Assembly (NCBI GenBank): GCA_040388625.1
Contig: JAZKBK010000006.1
Coordinates: forward strand, 1 to 64,000
DNA from: Gemmatimonadota bacterium
Lineage (GTDB): Bacteria > Gemmatimonadota > Gemmatimonadetes > Gemmatimonadales > Gemmatimonadaceae
DNA length: 64,000 nucleotides
Reading direction: 5' to 3'
Part shown: piece by piece, positions 11,904-21,106 of the stretch
How positions within the stretch are numbered: position 1 is the stretch's first letter
Layout of the letters: every line of letters begins with the position of its first letter
Program-made: the position numbers and the translations under genes
Notes under the pieces: model-generated
Told to the model about the DNA's origin: nothing
The model's database searches: none
Seen by the model: the letters and a program-made list of their open reading frames with translations, nothing else

Positions 11904-11966
11904 CGGCGCGTCCCGCTTGCGCTGTGACCAGTCCGTTCGGCGTAGCTTGTCGGTCGGAGGCTCTCG

Positions 11967-14258
11967 ATGGAACGCGCAGCACAATCGACCGACGAATGGA
12001 TTCTACCAGTATTGCGCGAGCTGCTGACGTCGGCCCAGCTCGCAGCGATCGCAAAGGACACGACGGCGAGCAAATGGTGCGTCGCTGTCTCCAGCGGATT
12101 CACGACTGACGACGCGATTCTGCGCGCCATAGCGCGACGAACTCGGATGCGCGTAGCCGGCGCGCTCACGTCGTCGCCACAAGCCGTTGCGCGTGTTCCG
12201 GAGCGACTTGCGCGGCGATACTCGATTCTGCCGCTGTCGGTCTCTGCAAGTACGATAGACGTGGCCACCGCCAATCCCTACGATCTCCACTGCGAGCAGG
12301 CGATCGCGTTTGCAGCCGGTCGACGAGTACGAATGTCGCTCGCGCTTCCGGCACGGATAACCGAGCGCCTGGAAGAAGTGTATCGGCCCGCATCGGTGGT
12401 CGAGCGGCTGCTGGCGTCGGTTGGGCCTGTCGCCGTGCATCAGGTCGAGCCCGAGACAGATCCAGCAACAGCAACCCAGCTCGCCGACGGTGCGAGGGAG
12501 AGACCGATCATCAAGCTGGTCGATCATATCGTCGCGGAGGGAATTGCGGCGAGAGCGAGCGACATTCATCTCGAGTCCGAGGAAGACGCAATCTCGGTTC
12601 GCTATCGAGTGGATGGCGTGTTGCGAACGGCGATGACTCTTCCGCGCGCAATCGGACTGCCACTCGTGTCGCGCGTCAAGATAATGTCGCGACTCGACAT
12701 TGCCGATCGGCTGCGCCCGCAGGGCGGACGGGCGTTGGTGATGGTGGAGGGTGAGCGAATCGATCTCCGCGTGTCCACGCTTCCGGCGGCGCACGGTGAG
12801 AAAGTGGTGATCCGCATTCTCGATGCGCGTGGCGGCGTTCGCTCGCTCGACGCGCTCGGCTTCGACGACACCGATGCAGCGCGGCTGACGCGGCTGCTCG
12901 AAACGCGTGAAGGATTGATTCTCGTGACGGGCCCGACCGGCTCCGGCAAGACCACCACGCTGTACTCTGCCCTGCACTCACTCGTATCACGCGGATTGAA
13001 CGTCATCACGGTCGAAGATCCGGTCGAATACCGGATTCCGGGGATAGTGCAATCTCAGGTGAACGAGAAGGCCGGTCTGACGTTCGCCGCGGCGCTGCGA
13101 TCGATCCTGCGACAGGACCCAGACGTAATTCTGGTCGGGGAGATCCGCGACGCGGAAACGGCGGCGATAGCAATTCAGGCTGCACTTACGGGACACCTCG
13201 TCTTCGCGACCCTTCACACCATCGACGCCGCGAGCTCCATCACCAGGCTAGGCGACCTCGGCGTCGATCCGGCGAAAACCGGAACGGCGCTCAAGGGAGT
13301 GGTAGCGCAGCGGCTGTTGCGCCGTATGTGTTCCGCCTGCGCGCGCGACAGCGATGAGCCGATTCCACCTTCGCTCTGGGATTGCATCCCGAACGGTGCG
13401 CGGCTCAAGGCGGGCGCCGGCTGCGACGTCTGCGCTGGAACGGGCTTCAGAGGCCGCATGGCGGCAGTCGAGTTGCTGACGATGACTCCGACGCTCACAC
13501 GTCTCATAGTGACGAGCGCTCCAGCGCCCCTCATCACCGCCGCCGCGCGCGCCGATGGAATGCGCTCGCTCTGGACCAGTGGCGTCGCGCGAATAATGAG
13601 TGGCGAGACGACCGCTGCCGAAGTGTCACGGGTGCTGGACGCCGAGACGAACAGGGCCGGTGACGGCGATCAGGCCAGTGCAGAGCAAACAGACGATTGG
13701 CCTTCACGGGACGCCAAATTGCCTGCGATGTCGCCATATTCCGAGCATGGTACACAACCCGGAATGCCCGAGCGGCGCGTGGGGACAGATTCGATGACGC
13801 GAATCGAAGTTGGCGTGGTGGATGTCTACGTGATCGACCCCCAGACCGAGACGTGGAGAGTGCTGGCGCTACGGCGAGGAACCGGAACTCGCTGTCCCGG
13901 CGCCTGGGAGGCAGTCCACGGCCGGATCGAGTCCGAAGAGACCCCGGAGGACGCGGCGGTGCGCGAAGTGCTTGAGGAGACCGGACTCACGATCCGTCGA
14001 CTGTACAACATCACCGTGCACTCTTTCTATCTGCATCAGACGGCGCGCGTGGAAGTTGCGATCGTGTTCTGCGCGTTCGTCGACAGCGGAGCGATCGTTA
14101 CGCTCGGACAGGAACATGTCGAGTACACGTGGCTGAGCATGGAGGACGCAGCGTCGCGATTCCTATGGCCGCGCGCGACGCAGGCGCTGGGTGAGATACG
14201 ACAGTTGTTGGGGAGTGGCGATGCGGGACCGGCTGAGGATGTGCTGAGAGTGTTGTGA
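11967..14258 (+). CDS. GspE/PilB-type secretion ATPase fused to a C-terminal Nudix hydrolase
   Basis: A 763-aa open frame with no internal stop. Residues 1-555 or so are a complete type II secretion/type IV pilus assembly ATPase. It has an N-terminal GspE domain, Walker A GPTGSGKTTTLY (322-333), Asp box and Walker B (DPDVILVGEIRDAETA), a His box (ATLHTIDA) and the zinc-type cysteines C455/C458 and C486/C489. A hydrophilic linker (about 556-609) leads to a Nudix domain with a perfect Nudix box (652-674: G-x5-E-x7-REVLEETGL). ATG 11967 has GGAGG upstream. Internal in-frame ATGs at 13728, 13764 and 13794 exist, and the last is preceded by GGGGA, so a separate Nudix protein may also be made. No other gsp or pil gene is nearby. 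Confidence 0.88.
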   Translation: MERAAQSTDEWILPVLRELLTSAQLAAIAKDTTASKWCVAVSSGFTTDDAILRAIARRTRMRVAGALTSSPQAVARVPERLARRYSILPLSVSASTIDVATANPYDLHCEQAIAFAAGRRVRMSLALPARITERLEEVYRPASVVERLLASVGPVAVHQVEPETDPATATQLADGARERPIIKLVDHIVAEGIAARASDIHLESEEDAISVRYRVDGVLRTAMTLPRAIGLPLVSRVKIMSRLDIADRLRPQGGRALVMVEGERIDLRVSTLPAAHGEKVVIRILDARGGVRSLDALGFDDTDAARLTRLLETREGLILVTGPTGSGKTTTLYSALHSLVSRGLNVITVEDPVEYRIPGIVQSQVNEKAGLTFAAALRSILRQDPDVILVGEIRDAETAAIAIQAALTGHLVFATLHTIDAASSITRLGDLGVDPAKTGTALKGVVAQRLLRRMCSACARDSDEPIPPSLWDCIPNGARLKAGAGCDVCAGTGFRGRMAAVELLTMTPTLTRLIVTSAPAPLITAAARADGMRSLWTSGVARIMSGETTAAEVSRVLDAETNRAGDGDQASAEQTDDWPSRDAKLPAMSPYSEHGTQPGMPERRVGTDSMTRIEVGVVDVYVIDPQTETWRVLALRRGTGTRCPGAWEAVHGRIESEETPEDAAVREVLEETGLTIRRLYNITVHSFYLHQTARVEVAIVFCAFVDSGAIVTLGQEHVEYTWLSMEDAASRFLWPRATQALGEIRQLLGSGDAGPAEDVLRVL

Positions 14259-19045: not shown

Positions 19046-21106
19046 CTACAGAATCGGCCAGAAGTCGCGACTCACATCGAAATAGAAGCTCCATCGCCCA
19101 TCACGCGTCCCGCGCGCAACATCGAAGCGCAGCAGATCGAACACGCTGAGCAAGCCCACGCCCGCGCTCGGATACCATCCCTTGCCATCGACCCACGCGG
19201 TATGAACGAACGGCGCCAGCGTCGCGGTCGCCGGTGCGCGTCCCCACTCGCCGAGCGGCACGGGGATGAATGGAACCTTCGCTCGCCACTCGACGTGCAC
19301 CGCACCAGCGCGCTCGCCAACGAGTGAGTGAAAGTCATACCCAGGCGCCGTTACCGGTCCGCCGAGTGCGATGAGAGACTGCGGCGGAGTCCGGGTTCCG
19401 CTCGTGAGACCCGCCGCCAGCATCGATATCGCCAACTGTCCGGTAGAGAACGTACGAGTCGCCGCAACGGTGCCGACGCCCTTCCCCGACTCGGTCACGA
19501 AATGCGCTAGCGCATCCTCTCGATCATGCAGCGCCGAAAGCGAGAGCGCCGCTGATGCGTCCATTCCGAATAGATCGAAGCGCGGTGCGTCGAGTCTGAG
19601 CGTCGCTCGCGCTTCTATCAGCGATGTCGCAGGCTGCGGTGGAGCGAAGTGCCCCGACGCCGGTTCTCCATGATCGGTGGCCATCGCCTGTCTCTCCACC
19701 GCAAACTCGAATGTCGGACGCAACGACATTGCGGTCGGCGCAAAGAACGAGAGCGACCCGCCGCGTGCGCTGAAGAGACCGGTGTAGTCGCTGCCGTACT
19801 CCTGCGTCGCAAAGCTGTTGATGAGACCCGAGCGCTCGGGAACCACAGACACGTCGTGCAACGCACGATAGGCCGCGACGCTGACCCCTGCTCCGCTATT
19901 CGACGAATAGGTCAGCGCAGCGTGCGGCTTCCAGTCGCGATCCGAAAAGCCATAGCCGGCGCCGGCGTTGAGAGCCAGACGCGGTGCAGCATACACGGTG
20001 GCAGCCGCCCCAAGCGCGATTCCCTCGACGCGATTGACATGAACGAACTGCGACACTGAAGAGCCAGCCAGCGCCAGCGTGCGCGCACGCTCCACCGTCC
20101 GTGCACGCACGAGATCACTCACCTCGCTATGAAGCTTCGCAACGTCCGAGCTGGCAAACGACTGCACATCGGGTGGAATCGAATCGAGCACCGTCCCGGG
20201 GAACTTGAATCCAGGGGTCGTAACCTCGCCGCTCCGCGTAACTACCGCGCCCGGCGCAATCTCTATCTCGGGACCCCGATCGAACACCGCATCGACCGGC
20301 ACGTTCACGTCATAATCCGAAATCTCCCAGCGTCCCCGAATTATCCCGCGCGCTGGGTAGTCCAGCCACGTTCCCGTCCTCCGGATCTCCACTTCCTGCC
20401 GCCTCGGCAACCAGAACCGCCCCTCGATCAATCCGCTCTCGAGCACGACAGAGATATCCTCCAGGTCCTTGTCCCTGTACGCTGCGCGCGTGAACCCGAT
20501 CGCCATGCGCACAACAGATCCGCTCTGCCGGTCCACGTACACGGATCCGATCGCACGCGCAGCATTCTGGTCCTTCGGCCGAAACCGCAGCTGTACCACG
20601 TCCAGCGTCCGGTCGCCCAGCCGTATCTCCAGCGAGTCGCCAACGGCAAAGTCGTAATCGTTGAGTCCGGATGGCGATAGCGGATGGGGGACGTCCTGTA
20701 CCTCGTCGCCGTCGCCAATCCTGATGAAGCTCGGGAAGTTGTTCTGCACTATCCCGAGATGGTCCCGGTGATAATTGATGTCGGTCGGCAGGACCAGTGT
20801 ATCGCGGCGTCCCTTGATCAACTGTTTGCTGAGCGACGGCGCCTTCCAGTAGATATCCGACGCGATCTGGTCGGCGCGGACTATCTTCGGAGGATCGGGA
20901 AAGCCCTTGCCCAACTGGGCAAGAAAGGTCAAGTAACCCCTGGCCTCCGCCTTGTAGCTTTTTAGCCCGCTATCGGCGAGCTGAGCGGCACGAACCGCAG
21001 TCGCGTGAGTCGCCAGGCTCTCGGCGCGCGCGGAGTTCCAGTCCTGGGCGGCGATGGCGACGGGAGCGAGAAGAATTACCAGCCCCGTTGTCATGGTGCG
21101 CTTCAT
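19046..21106 (-). CDS. Predicted outer-membrane beta-barrel protein of unknown function
   Basis: A 686-aa exported protein with signal peptide MKRTMTTGLVILLAPVAIAAQ. The N-terminal half (about 25-310) has a soluble beta-rich look (GSVYVDRQSGSVVRMAIGF, LPRRQEVEIRRTG), reminiscent of the lipid-binding fold preceding barrels in surface proteins. The C-terminal half alternates amphipathic strands and ends in FYFDVSRDFWPIL, consistent with a barrel. I do not recognise a named family. Its start codon is only 15 bp from the divergent trpE start, so its promoter must lie largely inside trpE or its message must be nearly leaderless. Confidence 0.72.
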   Translation of the reverse strand: MKRTMTTGLVILLAPVAIAAQDWNSARAESLATHATAVRAAQLADSGLKSYKAEARGYLTFLAQLGKGFPDPPKIVRADQIASDIYWKAPSLSKQLIKGRRDTLVLPTDINYHRDHLGIVQNNFPSFIRIGDGDEVQDVPHPLSPSGLNDYDFAVGDSLEIRLGDRTLDVVQLRFRPKDQNAARAIGSVYVDRQSGSVVRMAIGFTRAAYRDKDLEDISVVLESGLIEGRFWLPRRQEVEIRRTGTWLDYPARGIIRGRWEISDYDVNVPVDAVFDRGPEIEIAPGAVVTRSGEVTTPGFKFPGTVLDSIPPDVQSFASSDVAKLHSEVSDLVRARTVERARTLALAGSSVSQFVHVNRVEGIALGAAATVYAAPRLALNAGAGYGFSDRDWKPHAALTYSSNSGAGVSVAAYRALHDVSVVPERSGLINSFATQEYGSDYTGLFSARGGSLSFFAPTAMSLRPTFEFAVERQAMATDHGEPASGHFAPPQPATSLIEARATLRLDAPRFDLFGMDASAALSLSALHDREDALAHFVTESGKGVGTVAATRTFSTGQLAISMLAAGLTSGTRTPPQSLIALGGPVTAPGYDFHSLVGERAGAVHVEWRAKVPFIPVPLGEWGRAPATATLAPFVHTAWVDGKGWYPSAGVGLLSVFDLLRFDVARGTRDGRWSFYFDVSRDFWPIL

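Follow-up and report, generated by a model that had tools for sequence, protein, structure and literature searches.

How does a single gene come to encode both a secretion-type motor ATPase and a Nudix hydrolase, and which products does it make? The gene that raises this question lies in a window of 64,000 nucleotides (the whole stretch of DNA analysed here) from a Gemmatimonadota genome of 22 contigs and 3.84 Mb (G000). It occupies a single open frame on the forward strand, 11967-14258, with an ATG start, 763 codons for amino acids and no internal stop. Pfam recognized in its product an MshEN domain (residues 67-142, E 7e-16), a T2SSE domain (178-555, E 3e-121) and a NUDIX domain (617-732, E 9e-18), in agreement with a first-pass annotation that had described an uninterrupted frame joining a GspE/PilB-type ATPase to a Nudix hydrolase. 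The perfect Nudix box claimed at residues 652-674 was also found, as GRIESEETPEDAAVREVLEETGL fits the consensus GX5EX7REUXEEXGU exactly, which places the C-terminal part among the Nudix hydrolases. In a structural model of the full-length protein, the MshEN and Nudix parts were folded with confidence and the linker was disordered (pLDDT about 30), while the motor part was poor because of a shallow alignment. The features of the gene are collected in the table below.

Features of the ATPase-Nudix gene, in positions of the window
Feature	Position	Strand	Basis
MshEN-T2SSE-Nudix fusion gene, 763 aa	11967..14258	+	frame, Pfam, homologues
TAGCTT, candidate -10 element of the fusion gene	11943..11948	+	sequence; TAG[CG]TT before starts recurs in the order
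GGAGG, putative Shine-Dalgarno of the fusion gene, 6 nt before ATG 11967	11956..11960	+	sequence
MshEN domain, residues 67-142, without c-di-GMP binding motif	12165..12392	+	Pfam, motif check
T2SSE motor ATPase domain, residues 178-555, catalytic motifs intact	12498..13631	+	Pfam, motifs
Linker, residues 559-609, predicted disordered; orthologues have a REC domain there	13641..13793	+	alignment, model
CATATT, weak candidate internal -10 element in the linker; TCGCCATATTC kept in 4/4 genomes of the genus	13735..13740	+	comparison
ATG of residue 610, ancestral free-Nudix start and likely internal start	13794..13796	+	homologue comparison
Nudix hydrolase domain, order-specific NudB-like subfamily, C-terminal end GDAGPxEDVLRV	13794..14255	+	Pfam, comparison
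Nudix box, residues 652-674	13920..13988	+	consensus match

A search for full-length homologues revealed both domains in one open frame in 38 genomes (35 tabulated genomes plus G003, G141 and G148) from nine genera of one Gemmatimonadota family (g1, g2, g5, g7, g10, g11, g14, g15 and g21). The search of relatives returned full-length matches in the gene's own genus g1 (all four genomes available) and in g5, g10, g11 and g21, the match in G003 (g1) being cut by a contig end; querying the family with the Nudix end and reading the loci added fusions in g2, g7, g15 and, for a single genome among those read, g14. As first proposed, the fusion is real, and it is conserved; the outcome that was to have refuted it, homologues always split into two genes, did not occur, since fused genes in 38 genomes stand beside unfused ones in many others. 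These 38 genomes also reject an assembly or sequencing error joining two genes, an explanation suggested by the two separate genes of related genera; with a linker dN/dS below 1 and no break of the frame, we regard such an error as exceedingly improbable. The literature searched, mostly freely readable papers, contained no report of a GspE/PilB-Nudix protein.

Several other candidates did not withstand inspection. Long open frames had suggested fusions in G114, G122, G138, G006 and G032, but what they encode upstream of the Nudix resembled no known protein by eye, and they were taken for high-GC shadow frames in front of a normal Nudix start. The apparent fusion in G170 (L114) was excluded as its ATPase-REC is split over two frames. 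At another locus (L096, G017), an ATPase-Nudix fusion is surrounded by broken and repeated ATPase pieces, which may reflect a duplication followed by decay.

The motor half carries an intact Asp box, Walker A, catalytic Glu, Walker B, His box and CxxC pairs, which place it in the T2SSE superfamily. Walker A is identical in 23/23 fused rows of the alignment, and wherever a row covers one of the remaining motifs, it is conserved. The domains, catalytic motifs and CxxC pairs are those of PilB and GspE ATPases (PDB 5zfr, 5tsg, 4ksr), and the best PDB match was PilB 5zfr (E 9e-102). Neither NCBIfam cut-off was reached by this ATPase, for GspE (513.7 vs 630.25) or for PilB (473.5 vs 675.65). It further differs from PilB and GspE by its C-terminal Nudix domain, by the lack of adjoining system genes and by the lack of a c-di-GMP motif. 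MshEN receptors of c-di-GMP bear two RLGxx...LxxxLxxQ motifs (PMC5013675), and none of the 72 members of the ATPase-REC/Nudix family has them; a recent review of PilB (PMC11656802) mentions neither receiver nor Nudix domains. By eye, the genome's own PilB (L151, G000:C6 about 175.4-176.6 kb) has a perfect double c-di-GMP motif. The T2SSF genes of the genome lie at three places with T2SSE genes adjoining, and these and all secretin genes are outside the window. The scanned neighbours of the fusion gene encode Lon, EngB, an acyltransferase, a thioredoxin-like protein, a TonB receptor, a DUF5686-like protein and TrpE, consistent with the first-pass remark that no other secretion genes are nearby. 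From its sequence and surroundings, the ATPase looks like an orphan motor.

We observed that other genera of the family, as well as the other two families of the order, have the same ATPase at the same syntenic place, ending in a receiver (REC) domain whose acidic pocket, phosphoacceptor Asp, Thr and Lys are invariant in 31/31 aligned receivers. In these REC-bearing relatives the Nudix hydrolase is a separate gene, and in 17 of the 18 REC loci of the family that have it on the same stretch, its start lies no more than 31 nt ahead of the ATPase stop or 118 nt past it. A block of TrpE, DUF5686-like, ATPase, Nudix, acyltransferase, lipoprotein-like, EngB, Lon and ClpX genes is common to the order and shared by the window, except that in this genus the ATPase-Nudix gene is inverted relative to the DUF5686-like gene. 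By synteny and sequence, the window gene is therefore an orthologue of the order's ATPase-REC group, with which it shares ATPase lineage and locus, although no receiver domain is present in its linker; the receiver is gone and the next gene has been joined on. As REC-bearing pairs occur elsewhere in the order, the fusion arose by loss of the receiver and of the stop codon in an old gene pair. Loci without receiver and without fusion were found in g16, g17, g31, g48, most of g14 and G090, and they are intermediates.

Additional observations were made around this gene pair. The orthologues and a paralogue in the same genome (L150, G000:C1:65896-67533, 44% identity) retain a phosphorylatable C-terminal receiver where the window gene has its Nudix domain. 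The unfused g14 ATPases (L067, L069, L072, L073) have tails of about 110 aa that may, on weak evidence, be decayed receivers: the hhalign match to a receiver (P 0.01) is suggestive only, and one such tail modelled with AlphaFold had a pLDDT of 40, too low to be informative. The DUF5686-like gene of the window (19046-21106, minus strand; a weak match) has its counterpart directly upstream of the ATPase throughout the order. Finally, histidine biosynthesis-like genes, HisB-like by eye, are inserted between or after ATPase-REC and Nudix at L131, L134, L137, L138 and L148 in other families of the order.

In the ATPase tree, one branch splits REC-bearing from REC-less rows (SH-aLRT 97). Placement of the receiver-less G090 with its own genus g20 fits as well or better (AU 0.83), so a second loss of the receiver is likely. 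A single clade of fused ATPase rows was rejected (AU p 1e-45), which implies either several fusions or one fusion followed by later fissions; fusion is thus a recurrent or reversible step in a gene pair found across the order. Several long-branch rows leave details of the receiver-less part of the tree unsure. Median root-to-tip distance was 0.46 for rows with REC, 1.13 for fused rows and 1.5 for REC-less unfused rows; the faster rate accompanies loss of the receiver rather than fusion. Furthermore, dN/dS between g1 pairs was about 0.05 for the ATPase, 0.06-0.14 for Nudix and, in diverged pairs, 0.3-0.7 for the linker, with several dS values near saturation. Judged by sequence, the motor and Nudix halves are both under purifying selection, and their motifs are intact.

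The closest NCBIfam model of the Nudix part was NudB, dihydroneopterin triphosphate diphosphatase (PRK09438, E 3e-14; PDB 2o1c), yet its score was below the curated cut-off (52.8 vs 103 bits). The best PDB sequence matches were MutT/MTH1 Nudix hydrolases (E 1e-9 to 1e-6), a likeness that amounts to local similarity only. The genome has four Nudix genes, among which only that of the fusion matches NudB at E 0.001, and it also encodes FolE, making this domain the genome's best candidate for the NudB step of folate synthesis; the assignment is weak because the same level of match below the cut-off occurs in most control genomes. The subfamily is encoded by 99 of the family's 105 good genomes and is widespread in the order, and no member turned up in genomes sampled elsewhere in the phylum. 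It is also retained in g4, g18, g22, g23 and g25, where no adjoining ATPase was found, which suggests that its main role is independent of the motor. Rather than a part of secretion, the Nudix domain is probably a housekeeping enzyme that became tethered to an orphan motor.

The first-pass annotation had pointed to in-frame ATGs in the linker, one of them behind a GGGGA element, and to a possible production of both a fusion and a free Nudix protein. The ATGs are there, and so is GGGGA (13781-13785, 8 nt before ATG 13794, M610). However, Shine-Dalgarno-like 4-mers were not enriched at this position (5/35 fused homologues vs 17% background), so the element carries no weight and was rejected as a ribosome site. 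The ATG itself fared better, as the Nudix start of unfused relatives (MTxI...GVVDV) is still contained in the fused frame. ATG or GTG occurs at linker position -7 in 27 of 35 fused genes, rows that are phylogenetically non-independent, vs 3.9% at other linker positions. Within g5, ATG and GTG exchange at the old start, and where the codon is for Val it is GTG in 8/9 cases vs 42% background. Some fused genes no longer have the old start (ACG in G186 and G194, GTA in G190), although another ATG or GTG is then present within 15 codons of the Nudix core.

Promoter-like DNA was also found in some linkers. The four tabulated g15 linkers have TAG[CG]TT exactly 7 nt before the old Nudix ATG, despite differing peptides. 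The same element is enriched 5-8 nt before start codons in the order, also with g15 left out, and precedes the free Nudix genes of G019 and G027; it appears to be a leaderless-type start signature in the order. Instances 5-8 nt before starts were noted at L061, L065, L073, L112, L118, L145, L236, L238, L240 and L243. In g5 and g7 linkers, a TAT[AGC]AT element is kept with otherwise minority codons (TAT in 14/15 vs 31%, xAT in 15/15 vs about a third). A consensus sigma-70 promoter was considered for the window's own linker and rejected, none being found there.

The retention of the old start in 27/35 genes and the promoter-like elements of some linkers suggest that free Nudix is probably still made from the old start codon; the gene fusion is real, and the proposed free enzyme is backed by start-codon conservation. 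We consider it unlikely that the fusion is the only product, with Nudix a tethered enzyme and the start codons inherited leftovers or the result of peptide constraint. The missing Shine-Dalgarno signal at the internal start and the loss of the old start in some genes would fit such a case, but the ATG/GTG exchange in g5, the preference for GTG among Val codons and the promoter-like DNA kept where the peptide differs argue against it. Genes with an in-frame internal start that gives a second, shorter protein include infB and clpB of Escherichia coli, and the window gene would work likewise. Unlike in these genes, the short product would here come from what was once a gene of its own, later swallowed by the fusion.

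Another possibility is that Nudix replaced the receiver as the regulatory module of the motor, tuning the ATPase at the pilus base by sensing or destroying a nucleotide (alarmone, ADP-ribose or cofactor). Both domains sit at the same C-terminal position, all four g1 genomes available and those g5 and g7 loci that were read keep the fusion, and an ATPase family without c-di-GMP motif would need some other input. Conversely, the Nudix gene stood next to the ATPase gene before any fusion took place and is still present in genera where no adjoining ATPase was found, the receiver has gone without fusion in the six intermediate groups named above (g16 to G090), the linker varies in sequence and is predicted to be disordered, and the Nudix start codon is preserved. 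Such functional coupling is, in our judgement, quite unlikely. Still more doubtful is a combination in which the linker is dual-use DNA, encoding the tether and also holding the promoter and start codon of Nudix, and the motor-bound Nudix couples the motor to nucleotide or folate status after receiver loss.

We favor, with reasonable though limited confidence, a true fusion of an old operon pair in which Nudix is made free and fused, the motor is accessory and the tether has little specific function. Comparison among relatives shows that the order's ancestor had an orphan PilB/GspE-type ATPase ending in a phosphorylatable receiver, followed a few bases downstream by the gene of a NudB-like Nudix pyrophosphatase. 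By the same comparison, one lineage of the family lost the receiver and its ATPase evolved at about twice the rate; several genera also lost the stop between the two genes, which left the motor bearing Nudix on a flexible linker. From their motifs, both enzymes are catalytically complete. Nudix most likely keeps its old housekeeping job of cleaving a nucleotide or pterin triphosphate, made both as a fusion and, from the old in-frame start, as a free protein, which in some genera may be expressed from the old promoter within the linker. The motor, no longer under REC control, most likely still serves one of the type IV filament machines of the cell as an accessory ATPase of the extension type, and the tether probably has little or no specific function. 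The stability of the fusion across the deep splits of g1, g5 and g7 counts against this preferred explanation, as the tether could be under selection.

If the dual-use reading is true, one gene would give rise to both a motor-bound and a free enzyme. The step from operon to fusion is frozen in living relatives as a receiver-bearing pair, a receiver-less pair and a fused gene, with the start of the swallowed gene kept inside the new frame. The locus offers a case in which to ask if fusions of this kind act as neutral tethers or bring new regulation. Its Nudix hydrolase, as yet unassigned, may fill the missing folate step in Gemmatimonadota.
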